NCBI GenBank assembly: GCA_014802335.1
Contig: JAAVCL010000016.1
Span: 1 to 64,000 of the forward strand
From: Bacteroides sp.
GTDB taxonomy: Bacteria; Bacteroidota; Bacteroidia; Bacteroidales; Muribaculaceae
Reading direction: 5' to 3'
Length of the DNA stretch: 64,000 nucleotides
Below the pieces are notes generated by a model. It saw only the letters and a program-made list of their open reading frames with translations. It did no database searches and was not told the origin of the DNA. Below, one piece after another: positions 453 to 47,122 of the stretch (position 1 is its first letter; every line of letters begins with the position of its first letter). Made by a program: the position numbers and the translations under genes.

Positions 453-1268
453 TTAAGCATTTACTAAGGCCAAAAATATTCCAAAAACAGGCAGTACAAG
501 GAGAAGTGAATCAATCCGGTCAAGAATCCCTCCATGTCCGGGAATAAGATTTCCGGAATCCTTCACGTTGGCCGACCGTTTAATCATTGATTCAATTAAA
601 TCTCCCCAGGTGCCGAATATGGAAACAAGAGCTCCAAGAATTAACCAGGTGCACATATTTGCTCCGATTTTGTCTGTCTCAAAGAAATTATTGCAATAAA
701 TATAAAACAGAGCTGAAGCTATGAGACAGAAGATGAAGCCTCCGAAGAAACCTTCCCATGTCTTTTTGGGAGAAATACGTTCAAATAATTTATGCTTCCC
801 GATTAAACTTCCAACCAGAAATGCACCGGTATCATTAATCCATAGCAGGAAAAAAATGGCAAGAAGAATCATTGGACTTAACTCTACAGATATCCATGTC
901 ATAACAGCCATTGGGAAGCCGATATATATCTGGGTTAACATGGAGTGGGAGAGCCCTTTCAGGGGATTGTCGGTCGATATATACAACTCTATTATAAACC
1001 TGAACACCATAATGGCTGCCCAGATATAAAATATATAATCGACATATAAACAACAGAGACTCACACAACCCAACACATCAAGTATGAGTGTCGGAAAAGT
1101 GCGAGAATCCAAATCGTGATTAATCTTTGCAAATTCAATACAGCCAAGAATGGAAAATACAATAGCAAGCAAGGTAACTCCTTGATATCCCCATAATATG
1201 CATCCTATGATTACTGCACAATATACGATGCCGGAAAGCGCGCGGACACCTACTTTTCGTAAATCCAT
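453..1268 (-). CDS. cdsA: Phosphatidate cytidylyltransferase
   Basis: This 271-aa inner-membrane enzyme makes CDP-diacylglycerol from phosphatidic acid and CTP, the branch point for all phospholipids. The C-terminal third carries the CTP_transf_1 signature: S-M-I-K-R, then K-D-S-G, then P-G-H-G-G-I-L-D-R-I-D. About eight hydrophobic helices precede and surround it, as is usual. It starts 22 bp after the GT2 gene on the same strand, so the two are probably cotranscribed. In many Bacteroidales cdsA follows rsfS-ftsH. Here those genes lie some 29 kb away, so the usual cluster appears split (the synteny is from memory). Confidence 0.95.
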   Translation of the reverse strand: MDLRKVGVRALSGIVYCAVIIGCILWGYQGVTLLAIVFSILGCIEFAKINHDLDSRTFPTLILDVLGCVSLCCLYVDYIFYIWAAIMVFRFIIELYISTDNPLKGLSHSMLTQIYIGFPMAVMTWISVELSPMILLAIFFLLWINDTGAFLVGSLIGKHKLFERISPKKTWEGFFGGFIFCLIASALFYIYCNNFFETDKIGANMCTWLILGALVSIFGTWGDLIESMIKRSANVKDSGNLIPGHGGILDRIDSLLLVLPVFGIFLALVNA

Positions 1269-1290
1269 ATAGATTCTGTGGCGTTATTAA

Positions 1291-2025
1291 TTAACAGAAA
1301 TTTTTCTTGCAAAAAATACTTCTCAATTTTAATGAAATAACTCCGAAGATTGCTTCTCCAAAAATACTTGAATTCATTTTTGAGGTGCCAAGTTGTCGAT
1401 TCACAAAGACTATCGGTACTTCAACTATTCTGTATTTCTTGAAATATGCCTTAAATTTCATTTCAATCTGAAAGGCATATCCTTTGAAACGTATTTTATC
1501 AAGATTCAAATCTCGAAGAACGTTCGAACGATAACATACGAATCCGGCTGTGGAATCTCTTAATTTCATTCTTGTTATCATCCTTACATACACTGATGCA
1601 AAATACGACATTAGAACTCGACCCATAGGCCAGTTCACAACGTTTACTCCTGATATATAACGCGAGCCTATGGCAACATCAGCGTTTTTGTCTTTACATT
1701 CATGATAAAGTCTGGGAAGATCTGACGGATTATGCGAGAAATCTGCATCCATCTCAATCACATATTGATACCCGCGTTCCAGTGCCCATTTAAATCCGTG
1801 AATATAGGCAGTGCCGAGTCCGAGTTTTCCGCTTCTTGTTTCAAGAAAAAGCCGACCGGGATACTCATCAATCTTCTGCCGTACTAAATCTTGTGTGCCG
1901 TCAGGTGATGCATCATCGATCACGAGAATATTAAACACGTCTGATAACCCCATTACTGCATCGATAATGTTACCGATGTTTTCAATCTCGTTATATGTCG
2001 GAATTATCACCAACGCGTCACTCAT
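1291..2025 (-). CDS. Polyprenol-monophosphate mannosyl/glycosyltransferase (GT2)
   Basis: This 244-aa glycosyltransferase family 2 protein begins VIIPTYNEIENIGNII, the N-terminal nucleotide-binding motif. It continues with VIDDASPDGT and the metal-binding DxD-type motif in EMDADFSHNPSDL, then SRYISG and the DSTAGFVCYR segment. This pattern is that of dolichol-phosphate mannose synthase and its bacterial homologues, which load a sugar from a nucleotide donor onto a polyprenyl phosphate at the cytoplasmic face. There is no C-terminal transmembrane pair, so it is the short soluble class. It sits upstream of cdsA with a 22-bp gap. The sugar donor cannot be fixed from sequence alone. Confidence 0.88.
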   Translation of the reverse strand: MSDALVIIPTYNEIENIGNIIDAVMGLSDVFNILVIDDASPDGTQDLVRQKIDEYPGRLFLETRSGKLGLGTAYIHGFKWALERGYQYVIEMDADFSHNPSDLPRLYHECKDKNADVAIGSRYISGVNVVNWPMGRVLMSYFASVYVRMITRMKLRDSTAGFVCYRSNVLRDLNLDKIRFKGYAFQIEMKFKAYFKKYRIVEVPIVFVNRQLGTSKMNSSIFGEAIFGVISLKLRSIFCKKNFC

Positions 2026-2051
2026 ATCTCTTTCTCTCTTTTTTATTATTG

Positions 2052-2080
2052 CAAATTTACGAAAATTTTTCTATTTCAAA
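2052..2080 (-). promoter_or_regulatory. Candidate Bacteroidota-type promoter for the GT2-cdsA pair
   Basis: On the minus strand a TTTG (2077-2080) is followed 17 bases later by TAAATTTG (2052-2059), which fits TAnnTTTG. The spacing is two bases shorter than the usual 19. It ends about 27 bases before the GT2 start codon at 2025. Confidence 0.4.
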
Positions 2081-2244
2081 ATGCAGTAGCCACACTTTTT
2101 TGAGTAATTGACCAATTGAAGTTTATAATTTGTTGGTCGAGTGTGGCGCACTGCGATATTTTATTTCGCAAATTTTCGGGTTATTATAGATCAATAGGTT
2201 TATTTGTAGAGCGTTACTTATTTGTTTCTTCCCAATCATATTAT

Positions 2245-3168
2245 TTAGAAAGATATGACTCTTTTTCCTATAAATTTGGAAGGGTGATAGGAAATTTTGC
2301 TCTTCCTAAGATCTTCCGAACCCATATCATCTTCTCTATTCAAATATTGAACTTCGGGATATTTTTCTTTAACCGTCTCGGCGAAAAACGATGAGAGGGC
2401 CTGATAGACGCCTCCATAGTTTATATCACCTTTTTCAACATGAATAATCATAGTATCTCCAATTGCTTCTCCGAAAGTATAACCTGCGATTTTTCCATTG
2501 ACCCTTATAAGAATACCTAAATATGGATAAGAGGAATAGGAGAGTAGCGCTCTTTTTACTTCTTCTGCTTCATAGACTGCTATCTTATCATCACTATGAT
2601 TTATAGAGAAATCATCTGTAAATTTCACAAGTTCATCGGCATTTTCTTCATTGATTTCCTCAATACTAAAATCATAATGATTTTTGAAGAAATTAAGATG
2701 ATTTCTTTTCTTGCTCATTTTTTTACCCGGGAAATTAATGAACTTGTCTATTTCATAGATATATTCCATCCAGTCCGGCATAAGGGTTTGATCTACAGGA
2801 CGGCCATCGCCATCTTCTACCGGAGCATATTCCTCGGGAAGCAAAAGAATTCCTTTTTCCTTATTTATACGGCAATAATTTGCTACCAGATCCTTATATT
2901 CCTCTAAAGACATTTCACCCCTTGGCTCATAGAATATTTTAAGATTAGATTCCGGCCAAGTTCCCATTATAATCAGAGTTTCTCCAATTATGCAATATTG
3001 ATAATTATAAAACTTATTCCATAGAAGCACTCCTCCTACTGAGAAATCACATGATCGGGAGGGATAATGATTAAAGAAATATTGAAGAATTTCAACATCA
3101 TTATCCGTAATATCCTTAAAATCAAGTGTTAAATCTTTTATAACCTTAAGTTCTTTTGTGGTTTCCAT
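2245..3168 (-). CDS. DUF2156 domain protein (GNAT-fold, PG-lysyltransferase-like)
   Basis: This 307-aa protein of the DUF2156 family has no membrane segment and is expected to be cytoplasmic. Its middle part (PDWMEYIYEIDKFINFPGKK, then KKRNHLNFF) is the family's typical first GNAT repeat boundary. The C-terminal half (GKIAGYTFGEAIGDTMIIHVEKGD) resembles the acyl-CoA-binding half of the fold. Related domains form the catalytic part of phosphatidylglycerol lysyltransferases, which use aminoacyl-tRNA, but here the N-terminal membrane domain is missing, so the substrate is unknown. It lies 219 bp upstream of the GT2 gene on the same strand. Confidence 0.8.
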   Translation of the reverse strand: METTKELKVIKDLTLDFKDITDNDVEILQYFFNHYPSRSCDFSVGGVLLWNKFYNYQYCIIGETLIIMGTWPESNLKIFYEPRGEMSLEEYKDLVANYCRINKEKGILLLPEEYAPVEDGDGRPVDQTLMPDWMEYIYEIDKFINFPGKKMSKKRNHLNFFKNHYDFSIEEINEENADELVKFTDDFSINHSDDKIAVYEAEEVKRALLSYSSYPYLGILIRVNGKIAGYTFGEAIGDTMIIHVEKGDINYGGVYQALSSFFAETVKEKYPEVQYLNREDDMGSEDLRKSKISYHPSKFIGKRVISF

Positions 3169-6729: not shown

Positions 6730-6896
6730 TAAGTATGTGTTAGAAATTATTTAACGTATTGAGTTATGAAGAATGTGGATGAAATTTAGGATTTGGCTGA
6801 AGGCGTTATGGGGTTCCATAGCAACGGAAGCCGGATTCTAAAGTTCGCCTCATAATTTATGAGGCAATGCATTTAATAATTTCTAACACATACTTA
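6730..6896. repeat. Palindromic intergenic element, family C (full copy)
   Basis: The element is 167 bp with perfect 22-bp terminal inverted repeats (6730-6751 and 6875-6896) starting TAAGTATGTGTTAG. Inside it has a GGCT...AGCC helix enclosing GAAGGC, a 7-bp hairpin (GTTATGG/CCATAGC), and AACGGA at 6799-6828, then AAAG..CGCC and a 9-bp palindromic stem GCCTCATAA/TTATGAGGC. It is inserted between the M16 peptidase stop codon and that gene's terminator. A truncated left end of the same family occurs at 32560-32607. No coding capacity was seen. Confidence 0.85.
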
Positions 6897-10933: not shown

Positions 10934-11130
10934 TAAGAAGTCGTTTAAACTTTTTTCAAGTCTAAGATTTATTAAGATTTTGCGCGAATTTTGATTCTTG
11001 AAGAAGGAGCATAGCGGGCTATGCGACTGATGAAAGAATCGAAAGGCGCCAAAATATTAATAAATATTAGACTTGAAGAAAACAAATTTAAACATTTCTT
11101 GGGTTTTCGAAAAAAGTTTAAACGACTTCA
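10934..11130 (+). repeat. Palindromic intergenic element, family A (copy A1)
   Basis: The element is about 197 bp. Its outer inverted ends contain AAGTCGTTTAAACTTTTT and its complement, and an inner inverted pair lies at 10956-10965/11067-11076 (TCAAGTCTAA/TTAGACTTGA). The core at 10993-11050 has GATTCTT..AAGAATC enclosing GAAGGA, the hairpin GCATAGC/GCTATGC and GACTGA, then GGCGCC. The core reads on the + strand. A 67-codon frame across it is fortuitous. Other copies are at 36539-36737 and 46881-47122. Confidence 0.85.
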
Positions 11131-17916: not shown

Positions 17917-18200
17917 TAAGTAGCTACGAATAATTAATCGATATATTAAACAAAGTAGTTAGGAATATCTTGAATGATAAAACTCGTTCTTTTTGGCATC
18001 TTTTGCTTTGTCATTCAGTCGCATACGAATGTATACTCCTTCATTTACTCGTCATTTTTTATCTTAAGGAAAATCGTCGATTTTCAATTCCGCAGCAAAA
18101 TATGCTCAAAATTGAAAATCGACGAGTTTCCTATTAATAGAAACAAGGACGAGTCAAATAACTTCGTTTTATCTGTTCATTAATTATTCGTAGCTACTTA
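17917..18200 (-). repeat. Palindromic intergenic element, family B
   Basis: The element is 284 bp with perfect 21-bp terminal inverted repeats (17917-17937 and 18180-18200) starting TAAGTAGCTACGAATAAT. Inside is a 16-bp perfect stem TCGTCGATTTTCAATT and complement (18075-18090 region with 18109-18124). On the minus strand it carries the same core as family A: GAAGGA, hairpin GTATAC/GTATGC, GACTGA, AAAG..GCC (17995-18052). The block at 18110-18157 is also present in the family A copy at 46937-46982. The right end abuts the dnaG stop codon exactly (18201). Confidence 0.85.
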
Positions 18201-32559: not shown

Positions 32560-32607
32560 TAAGATGTGTTAGAAATAATTTTTAGAAATAATTTAACGTA
32601 TTGAGTT
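32560..32607 (+). repeat. Truncated family C element (left end only)
   Basis: TAAGATGTGTTAGAAATAAT and, after a short duplication, AAATAATTTAACGTATTGAG match the left arm of the element at 6730-6770. No right arm or core is found before the TonB receptor gene. Confidence 0.6.
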
Positions 32608-36541: not shown

Positions 36542-36737
36542 GAAGTCGTTTAAACTTTTTACGAAAACCCAATAAGTGTTTAAAATTGTTTTCTTCAAGG
36601 CTAATATTTATTAATATTTTGGCGCCTTTCGATTCTTTTATCAGTCGCATAGCTCGCTATGCTCCTTCTTCAAGAATCAAAATTCGCTCAAAATCTTAAT
36701 AAATCTTAACCTTGAAAAAAGTTTAAACGACTTCTAA
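36539..36737 (-). repeat. Palindromic intergenic element, family A (copy A2, inverted)
   Basis: The element is about 199 bp in the opposite orientation to A1 and A3: the core (36621-36678) reads GAAGGA, hairpin GCATAGC/GCTATGC, GACTGA on the minus strand. Its inner arms are TCAAGGCTAA (36595-36604) and TTAACCTTGA (36706-36715), with one mismatch on + that becomes a G:U pair on the core-sense strand. Its TAAG end overlaps the hisS stop codon. Confidence 0.85.
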
Positions 36738-45368: not shown

Positions 45369-46883
45369 ATGAATAATAATATATACGAAGTGGGTTCCGG
45401 TGAACTTACTTATGATGTAATCGAGAAAATTCTTAAAAATAATTATAAACTTGTTCTTTCCGAGGAAGGACGCAAAAGAATCACTTATTGTAGAGATTTT
45501 CTTGATTCGAAGACAGAAAACACTAATGAACAGATTTATGGAGTAACAACCGGGTTCGGTTCGTTATATGACAAACATATATCTCCGGAAGAACTGTCAA
45601 CTCTCCAGGAGAATCTTGTAAAAAGCCATTCGTGCAGTGTTGGTACGCCGGTCGATGATACCATTGTTAAGTTAATGTTGCTTCTAAAGGCACATGCTCT
45701 TTCAATGGGATTCAGTGGAGTGCAAGTCATAACTGTAGAAAGAATCCTTGATTTCTACAATAATAACATTATTCCGGTTGTAAATGACCGGGGTTCGTTG
45801 GGTGCATCGGGTGACCTTGCTCCATTAGCCAATCTTTTTCTTCCGCTCATAGGTGAAGGTGAAGTCTTCTTTAAAGGCAAACGAGTTAAATCTTCAGAAA
45901 TGCTTGAAGCAATGGGGTGGGCCCCCATAAAATTAAAGTCAAAAGAGGGTCTTGCATTGCTGAACGGAACTCAATTTATGAGTGCAAATGGCATCAAAGC
46001 TCTGATAGATGGCTGGCACATGGTTAACTGCTTTGATTTATTCGGAGCAATGTCGCTTGAAGCTTATGATGGACGCATTGAACCATTCCTTGCCTGTATA
46101 CAGCAAGTTCGTCCTCACCCCGGACAGATTGAGACCGGCAAAATTTTCAGAAGTCTGCTTGCCGGGAGTGAAATGATCGTACGTCATAAAACACACGTGC
46201 AGGATCCTTATTCATTCAGATGTATCCCACAGGTTCATGGCGCTGTAAAAGATGCTATGATACATGTAACGGATGTCCTGCATATTGAAATTAACTCAGT
46301 TACAGATAACCCAACAGTTTTCCCTGATGAGGATCTGGTTGTGTCGGGCGGTAATTTCCATGGTGAGCCTTTAGCTCTCGCATTCGATTATATGGGCGTT
46401 GCTCTTCACGAACTTGGAAATATCTCTGAAAGACGTGTTGCCCAGTTGATTCTTGGAAAACGCGGTCTGCCTGAATTCCTTGTTGCGCATCCCGGATTGA
46501 ATTCCGGATTTATGATTCCCCAATATGCTGCGGCATCAATGGTTAGTCAAAACAAAATGTATGCGTGGCCGGCATCTTGCGATTCTATAGTAAGCTCTAA
46601 CGGACAAGAGGATTTAGTATCTATGGGTGCCAATGCAGCTACGAAATTGCACAAAATAATAGATAATCTTAAATATATTGCTGCTATTGAGTTAATGAAT
46701 GCCGCTCAAGGCATTGACTTTAGACGTCCCGCAAAGTCTTCTCCATATATAGAACATGTTATGGAAGAATTCAGAAAACATGTTCCTTTTGTTGAAGAAG
46801 ATGTGGTGATGGCAGATTATATTCAAAAAACCATGGAATTCCTTGATTCTTTCGATATTAACCTCGAAGAAGTGGTTGACTAA
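45369..46883 (+). CDS. hutH: Histidine ammonia-lyase
   Basis: This 504-aa enzyme deaminates histidine to urocanate, the first step of the pathway although it is the last gene here. The self-made MIO cofactor arises from Ala146-Ser147-Gly148 in GSLGASGDLAPLA. YGVTTGFGSL holds the catalytic Tyr, and the conserved NGTQFMSANG and QDPYSFRCIPQVHGA follow. The operon is thus complete from histidine to glutamate. Its TAA stop (46881-46883) forms the first three bases of a family A repeat. Confidence 0.97.
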   Translation: MNNNIYEVGSGELTYDVIEKILKNNYKLVLSEEGRKRITYCRDFLDSKTENTNEQIYGVTTGFGSLYDKHISPEELSTLQENLVKSHSCSVGTPVDDTIVKLMLLLKAHALSMGFSGVQVITVERILDFYNNNIIPVVNDRGSLGASGDLAPLANLFLPLIGEGEVFFKGKRVKSSEMLEAMGWAPIKLKSKEGLALLNGTQFMSANGIKALIDGWHMVNCFDLFGAMSLEAYDGRIEPFLACIQQVRPHPGQIETGKIFRSLLAGSEMIVRHKTHVQDPYSFRCIPQVHGAVKDAMIHVTDVLHIEINSVTDNPTVFPDEDLVVSGGNFHGEPLALAFDYMGVALHELGNISERRVAQLILGKRGLPEFLVAHPGLNSGFMIPQYAAASMVSQNKMYAWPASCDSIVSSNGQEDLVSMGANAATKLHKIIDNLKYIAAIELMNAAQGIDFRRPAKSSPYIEHVMEEFRKHVPFVEEDVVMADYIQKTMEFLDSFDINLEEVVD

Positions 46884-47122
46884 GAAGTCGTTTATACTTT
46901 TTTCAAGGCTAAGATTTATTAAGATTTTGAGCGAAATTGACTCGTCATTTCTATTTAATGGAAACTCGTCTATTTTCAATTTGATTCTTGAAGAAGGAGC
47001 ATAGCGGGCTATGCGACTGATGAAAGAATCGAAAGGCGCCAAAATATTAATTAATATTAGCCTTGAAGAAAATAATTATAAACACTTCTTAGGTTTTCGT
47101 AAAAAGTTTAAACGACTTCTAA
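46881..47122 (+). repeat. Palindromic intergenic element, family A (copy A3, with extra module)
   Basis: The element is about 242 bp. It begins with the TAA stop of hutH and ends in CGACTTCTAA, whose last A is the first base of the next gene's ATG, so it fills the whole intergenic gap. The core is at 46983-47040. The inner arms TCAAGGCTAA/TTAGCCTTGA (46903-46912 and 47057-47066) pair perfectly. Compared with A1 and A2 it carries an additional 46-bp block (46937-46982) that matches part of the family B element. Confidence 0.87.

Follow-up and report, generated by a model that had tools for sequence, protein, structure and literature searches.

Why should repeat elements with different ends carry the same internal structure? 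The question is raised by positions 46983-47040 of the window, i.e., the whole 64,000-nucleotide stretch of DNA analysed here, which is part of a 2.09 Mb genome in 30 contigs. An initial annotation, made from the sequence alone, had described at this locus a structured core that recurs at 10993-11050, at 36621-36678 and 17995-18052 (both on the minus strand), and at 6795-6850, in three repeat families (A, B, and C) whose terminal inverted repeats (TIRs) were taken to be unrelated. All five cores are present as described.

Elements within the window

The cores lie within five elements, whose features are as follows (window positions):

46884..47119, plus strand: family A element, 236 bp, TIR GAAGTC...GACTTC
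46881..46883: target-site duplication TAA, left copy of the 46884 element, from comparison with the empty site L009
47120..47122: target-site duplication TAA, right copy of the 46884 element, from the same comparison
46993..47020, plus strand: apical core GAAGGA-GCATAGCGGGCTATGC-GACTGA of the 46884 copy
10937..11129, plus strand: family A element, 193 bp, flanks with only AA in common
11003..11030, plus strand: apical core of the 10937 copy
36542..36734, minus strand: family A element, 193 bp, flanks TTA/TTA (by eye)
36641..36668, minus strand: apical core of the 36542 copy
17918..18199, minus strand: family B element, 282 bp, TIR AAGTAGCTACGAATAATTAAT
18015..18042, minus strand: apical core GAAGGA-GTATACATTCGTATGC-GACTGA of family B
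6731..6895, plus strand: family C element, 165 bp, TIR AAGTATGTGTTAGAAATTATTT
6799..6828, plus strand: apical core GAAGGC-GTTATGGGGTTCCATAGC-AACGGA of family C, with a related apex in L323, L325, and L421

All five elements possess TIRs and have no room for a transposase gene, and each is predicted to form, for the most part, a single long hairpin that carries the core in or close to its tip. The 46884 copy sits between an aromatic amino acid lyase gene and a nitroreductase gene. The ten neighbouring proteins that were scanned include these two as well as HisRS, ProRS, DnaG, IPP transferase, an M16 peptidase, and a SPOUT methyltransferase. The family B copy at 17918 holds two mutually complementary inserted segments that are missing, by eye, from the uninserted copy L123. 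A repeat of ~43 nt, GACTCGTC...GGAAACTCGTC...TTTTCAA, occurs once in the left arm of the 46884 copy (~46936-46979) and in some other A copies; in the B copy of the window it is present as two complementary pieces (~18060-18180), and uninserted copies do not have it. A solitary end with 85% identity to the family C terminal repeat lies upstream of an ORF at 32569-32607.

The core and the relationships among the families

The pattern GAAGGN{10,24}ACTGA, the retrieval of which set no pairing requirement, has 109 matches in the genome vs 55 for the pattern read backwards. Among the 100 matches listed, 40 have the 28-nt spacing, and 35 of these 40, comprising 12 distinct 28-mers, contain the full 6-bp stem. 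The remaining 60 have other spacings; 17 of them are too short to judge, and the full stem is found in none of the 43 that are long enough for a stem of at least four pairs. The stems differ in sequence yet are compensated (GCATAG/CTATGC, GTTTAG/CTAAAC, GAATAG/CTATTC, and GCATAC/GTATGC), in agreement with the original observation that stem bases vary while pairing is kept.

A common structured core is thus present in families with different ends, but the TIRs are not all unrelated, contrary to what had been proposed. By eye, AAGTA...TACTT tips are common to B, C, and a fourth family, D, and the A-type tips (GAAGTC) are similar to other ends found in the order Bacteroidales, namely GAAACTG, GAGCCTG, and GTAACTG. 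The family C locus of the window is matched by neither of the two covariance models described below (R1 and R2) up to E=10. Its inclusion is based on the apex ATGGGGTTCCAT, which occurs in two model matches (L323 and L325) and, by eye, in L421, an element that has both G·A tandems and joins GTTATGGGGTTCCATAAC to GAGGGA/GACCGA. Genome searches, in which 40 candidates were scored for each family (for A, 40 of 80), returned 51 matches for A, 33 for B, 54 for C, and 51 for D, counts that include partial and opposite-strand self matches; near-full copies number ~22 for C and ~13 for D. Families A-D are lineages of one superfamily resembling miniature inverted-repeat transposable elements (MITEs).

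The initial annotation knew of no described family with this combination of features. Rfam likewise gave no match in the window at the gathering score and none at E≤5 in four loci, and no description of the core was found in the open-access literature searched, which leaves out most subscription journals.

Anatomy and covariation of the core

Approximately 110 nt around the apex align almost without gaps. In families A, B, D, E, and F (14 sequences) the alignment is gapless over 110 nt, save for one row with a 5-nt insertion, and the paired structure extends for ~46 nt on either side of the apex, i.e., beyond the limits first given to the core. With a 29-pair structure, 91.9% of the cells in these 14 sequences pair, vs 73.1% in shuffled and at most 47.0% in slid controls. 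Of the 29 pairs, 20 vary on both sides, and covariation is 0.514 vs 0.175 (shuffled) and at most 0.127 (slid). In 33 representatives, 27 of 28 pairs vary on both sides, with a covariation of 0.642 vs 0.178 and at most 0.169, respectively, a figure that leans towards structure since these representatives were selected with a pairing filter.

From the tip outward, the module comprises a 6-bp stem with a 4-nt loop, often CGNG; a second class of apex is ATGG-GGYY-CCAT. Below the apical stem there are tandem G·A/A·G pairs split by standard pairs, followed by a helix of 7-10 bp. Beyond this helix are an A·G mismatch and 3-4 bp; a bulged base, in most cases A, then precedes UUUUG/CAAAA. The A·G mismatch occurs in 18 of 37 representatives, a table for which the filter credited G·T and needed three of four G·A positions, and for which seven of 44 clusters were discarded by eye as chance. 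Among 72 model matches taken without a G·A filter, at least one G·A tandem is present in 59; both tandems are found in 45, only the inner in four, only the outer in ten, and neither in 13. The second tandem is spaced by 2 bp in 41 matches, 1 bp in nine, and 3 bp in five (one element may count twice), and the spacers between the tandems vary in matched pairs (AG/CT, GG/CC, AT/AT; partly by eye). Elements of two families, f3 (L327, L282, L283) and f28 (L281, L292, L326), which are among the 13 with neither tandem, keep the apical stem, with a AATAGCGGGCTATT- or ATTTAGCGGGCTAAAT-type apex, and have no adjoining G·A tandem; the internal loop is therefore replaced there.

The core has tandem G·A pairs in common with the kink-turn, of which families A and B had reminded the initial annotation. 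What defines a kink-turn is a bulge of 3 nt that adjoins tandem G·A/A·G pairs, whereas alignments and folds of A, B, D, and their relatives contain a symmetric 6x6 internal loop (G·A/A·G, two standard pairs, G·A/A·G) that lacks such a bulge. The kink-turn and C/D-box assignments were consequently rejected. A hammerhead ribozyme was also considered and rejected; the motif CTGATGA…GAAA is seen in family A and absent from the B and C copies that were read.

Bias towards one strand

If the structure functions as a single strand, which strand is it? A mirror-neutral filter gave symmetric numbers of mismatches, since almost all palindromes are picked up on each of the two strands; the strand of 37 representatives, a set filtered for an apical G·A tandem, was therefore fixed by that tandem alone, with a filter neutral to the type of mismatch. 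At the other core positions, G·A mismatches outnumber T·C by 120 to 5 and G·T outnumber A·C by 60 to 19, with 10 of the 19 A·C in one loop column. When the bulge column is counted and the loop column omitted, there are 60 G·T and 36 A·C mismatches (p=0.02); the bulge column was left out of the 60 vs 19 count after this result was known. In 21 stricter representatives the numbers are 64 vs 3 for G·A and T·C and 35 vs 9 for G·T and A·C; with the bulge column the latter become 35 vs 23 (p=0.15), while the contrast between G·A and T·C holds. A gapped comparison of the arms gave, up to 60 nt from the apex in a set of filtered representatives, 303 G·A, 8 T·C, 74 G·T, and 29 A·C. In the outer arms (more than 60 nt from the apex), G·A vs T·C is 62 vs 44 (p=0.10) and G·T vs A·C 75 vs 44 (p=0.006). 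As the bias in the core far exceeds that in the outer arms, one single strand appears to be under selection in the core, and the outer arms much less so. The G·A strand is also predicted to fold better in all 37 representatives, by 12.3 kcal/mol with RNA and 5.4 kcal/mol with DNA parameters, in a set that was itself oriented by G·A.

Distribution

The closest relatives of one gene of this genome carry the labels Muribaculaceae and kin, and its family and order are accordingly taken to be Muribaculaceae and Bacteroidales. A covariance-model search, as suggested by the initial annotation, matched 182 of 297 Muribaculaceae genomes, in 21 of 30 genera, with model R1, and covariation lies above both the shuffled and the slid controls. 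The outcomes that the initial annotation had named as a refutation, such as chance matches alone, did not occur. The same model matched 15 of 344 genomes of the order, 12 of them outside Muribaculaceae. Model R2, built from a wider set, matched 24 of 393 Bacteroidales genomes, 20 of which are outside Muribaculaceae and belong to 13 other families. One of these families, f11, was set aside as chance, since its element (L329) matches in both orientations and seems to be a palindrome of another kind; 12 credible families beyond Muribaculaceae therefore remain. Among 395 genomes sampled from the phylum two match, both again Bacteroidales. The models also yield weaker matches on the opposite strand, because the elements are palindromes.

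Carriage as phage cargo was considered and rejected; family A had no match in phage records. A search of viral contigs with three core patterns matched three, zero, and zero contigs; the three (L299-L301) hold the A-type pattern and may be phage or misbinned chromosome. Matches to family A also lie at or near the ends of contigs C1, C9, C12, C19, C21, C27, and C30 of G000, where the repeats may be a cause of assembly breaks.

Mobility and the probable link to IS5

When the 46884 element and one TAA are removed, the resulting junction aligns with L009 with a 1-nt gap. A nitroreductase gene is near the lyase gene in 13 of 80 lyase relatives, and the gap between the two genes is -2 to 17 nt in five of them and at least 108 nt in the others. 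In L010 this gap contains a different palindrome, the tip of which resembles, by eye, a decayed core and is not a model match. At the 80 lyase loci R2 gave four matches in three loci, and that in L010 lies elsewhere than the gap.

A duplication of at least 3 bp (TAA, ATT, ACT, TAC, TTA, or TAAT) flanks nine of 15 assessable A copies; the six without a 3-bp duplication are L095, L096, L099, L108, L239, and the 10937 copy. For B, C, and D, 17 of 20 rows read T|AAGTA…TACTT|A, which is consistent with a TA duplication. Outside Muribaculaceae, TAA or TTA was seen by eye beside most of the GAGCCTG-, GTAACTG-, and GAAACTG-type ends that were read, with the exception of L331. Duplications of the form TNA are a trait of some IS5 groups.

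In the relative G092, one IS5-family transposase was found inside GAGATTGTCTAAA…TTTAGACAATCTC ends with TTA/TTA flanks, broken by IS982 (NF033520). The search for a partner in this genome covered 16 stretches, one of which (L424) was scanned for proteins and yielded this broken element. Its pieces were identified with NF033580, PF13340, and PF01609; the larger passes the NF033580 cut-off and the smaller is below it and matches PF13340. The tip of the core MITE L416 of the same genome, flanked by TAA/TAA and itself interrupted by another element, is identical to that of the broken IS5 element for 13-16 nt. By eye, the IS5 element lacks a core, which means that its transposase does not require one. 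In L424 (~700-3000), the IS982 within the IS5-family element adjoins a coreless palindrome of ~100 bp with GAGGGTGTTTCATAACA ends. No autonomous relative with the same ends was located for the families of the window, and in G601 no gene flanked by both ends was found in ORF lists and end searches of 16 stretches around unpaired ends. The elements are mobile, as evidenced by the one empty site, the 3-bp or TA duplications, and, in one relative, the broken IS5 element with matching ends.

The islands of conserved sequence in the alignment (GARGGA, GACYGA, TTTTGAG, and GCCAAAA) would be accounted for if the core were a double-stranded DNA binding site, common to the families, for a transposase or a nucleoid protein. 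We regard this as very improbable: stem and inter-tandem pairs vary in matched pairs, the spacing of the tandems changes, and the IS5 element with matching ends appears to be coreless. The initial annotation had offered either a structured RNA or the recognition site of a transposase acting in trans. Both the covarying fold and ends that fit a trans-acting IS5-type transposase are borne out, whereas a plain double-stranded transposase site is disfavoured, also by the one-strand bias of the core mismatches.

Elements with two cores

R2 yields 88 matches in G092, many of which are plus/minus pairs ~190 nt apart. These pairs lie in elements of ~350 bp with a different core on each strand; L411-L413, L415, L416, L419, L420, and L422 have TAAGAGCTTGTTTAATAATAAATGTT ends, and L414 has GAGGGTGTTTAATAACA ends. 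In the double forms that were read, each core runs inward from its own end. Single-core versions of ~160 bp with TAAGAGCTTGTTTAATAATAAATGTT-type ends are present in the same genome, and the core is therefore a module that is carried once or twice. Elements of family D (L221, L222, L224-L227, L232, L239) contain REP-like repeats of the GTAGGGACGTGGCGTGCCACGTC type, inserted, often several times, in mid-element, where they expand or replace the core.

Decay after insertion and genomic context

Private transitions at paired sites were compared in 84 copies from five families (A, B, C, and D of this genome and one of G601); changes were classed by the base alone, rather than with the partner in each copy, and the contrast disregards transversions. 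Wobble-keeping and pair-breaking transitions are equally frequent (68 vs 68), and within the core they number 19 vs 31. Contrasted with the 60 G·T vs 19 A·C observed between families, the core counts give p=3e-5 (Fisher), and p=0.005 when the bulge column is included (60 vs 36). Private changes show no preference for keeping the fold, in contrast to changes between families. From these modest counts, inserted copies seem to decay neutrally, while the lineages that founded families kept the fold; selection seems to act before insertion and not after it.

The covariation could, in principle, have arisen with no selection, by template switching that copies one arm of a hairpin onto the other. All the elements are quasi-palindromes, a known substrate for this process. 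Template switching should, however, erase G·A mismatches, and at least one tandem persists in most of the unfiltered matches; it predicts no strand preference, in contrast to the 120 vs 5 observed; and private changes are often pair-breaking and left uncorrected. Such an artefact is thus hardly credible as the source of the covariation.

ERIC or Correia RNAs, which affect mRNA stability, provide the model for a structured RNA that serves the host as a regulator, as a terminator, or by stabilising mRNA; transposition would have spread it, and it would be retained at its sites. The RNA-like covariation with G·U-type pairs would agree with such a role, as would the downstream genes, slightly more of which are co-directional than not (37 of 59; 37 vs 22, p=0.07). 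Orientation relative to the upstream gene shows no bias (31 vs 30), and cis-regulation through orientation was rejected, there being no clear bias in 65 contexts. The single copies do not favour changes that keep the fold, which makes a host function where they have inserted unlikely, and we consider this explanation of the core improbable overall.

In G552, 26 of 42 elements are oriented along the direction of replication (26 vs 16, p=0.16), a hand count in which origin and terminus were placed roughly from the GC skew of 20 stretches and a few elements lie near the origin switch. This bears on a special case of the role proposed below, in which the hairpin acts as single-stranded DNA. The TIRs would pair on the lagging strand and so offer the transposase a double-stranded end, with the core as a stable nucleus of folding whose mismatches also keep the palindrome from being perfect. 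The better fold of the G·A strand under DNA parameters in all 37 representatives (a set oriented by G·A), the predicted folding of whole elements largely as one hairpin, and the presence of one core per strand in double-core elements are all in accord with this. The replication-strand bias is not significant, however, and target duplications indicate ordinary insertion of a double strand. Action as DNA is accordingly a minority possibility, though a more serious one than a benefit to the host. RNA is slightly favoured over single-stranded DNA because G·T pairs are tolerated and there is no clear replication-strand bias.

Comparison with known repeats

Like ERIC/IRU and Correia (NEMIS) MITEs, the core elements are short, intergenic, bounded by TIRs, hairpin-forming, and devoid of a protein of their own. 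For ERIC, according to a review, no structural or functional motif is known besides the TIRs (PMC2229807). Unlike ERIC, the core elements contain an internal module that is kept by covariation across an order and is biased towards one strand. Porphyromonas gingivalis, a member of the same order, also has MITEs, known as BrickBuilt. In the extracts of their description, ISPg1 and ISPg9 are the insertion sequences whose ends come nearest to their terminal repeats, and 23-nt tandem repeats form their framework (PMC4596501). They differ from the core elements in that those extracts contain no such hairpin core, a distinction drawn from the description and not from sequence.

REP/REPIN sequences are likewise high-copy mismatched palindromes, and the inverted core pairs of G092 recall REPINs. 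REPINs go with RAYT (Y1) transposases, and REPs are not known to carry TIRs or target duplications, in contrast to the core elements, which possess both. REPs have a length of 20-40 bp (PMC3733652). A REP-looking repeat tagged with GTAG is itself found inserted in family D elements. The attC sites of integrons are also hairpins of a single strand, and it is their structure, not their sequence, that is recognised; unlike them, the core elements are dispersed copies with target duplications, and no integron context was noticed in passing.

Proposed role of the core

The elements are MITEs, i.e., inverted-repeat transposons that are non-autonomous, and IS5-family DDE transposases probably move them in trans. 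What sets them apart from an ordinary MITE is the central module of ~110 nt, an irregular hairpin that appears from covariation to be kept on one strand. Its apical stem has 6 bp and is usually followed by one to three tandem G·A pairs, with one to three standard pairs between them. Next come a further helix, with an A·G mismatch in about half of the families, and a UUUUG(A)G/CCAAAA helix that has a bulged A; the terminal repeats form the base. The folded single strand, either RNA or single-stranded DNA exposed in replication, would raise the odds that a copy is mobilised; mainly those source copies that fold would found new families, and a copy, once inserted, would have no role and decay. 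We infer that the fold acts in mobilisation, and the evidence suggests that the folded strand itself helps the elements to spread. That a single-stranded fold promotes the spread of IS5-mobilised MITEs, the copies of which decay after insertion, is in our judgment the probable explanation.

A more tentative and rather unlikely extension is a bacterial equivalent of a SINE. The core would be transcribed as a selfish RNA, and this structured RNA, carried by a DNA transposon that has no genes, would capture a transposase produced elsewhere. If so, the preference of the captured transposase for its own element would be overcome, and elements with two cores would give a folded core when transcribed from either side.

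Covariance models now exist for these hitherto unannotated repeats, some of which lie at the contig ends of the assembly, and the core provides a structure that is directly testable. The usual view of a MITE is of a pair of transposon ends with hardly anything else. A single-strand fold inside the element, kept by covariation across an order while inserted copies seemingly decay, points to a hidden requirement of MITE spread.
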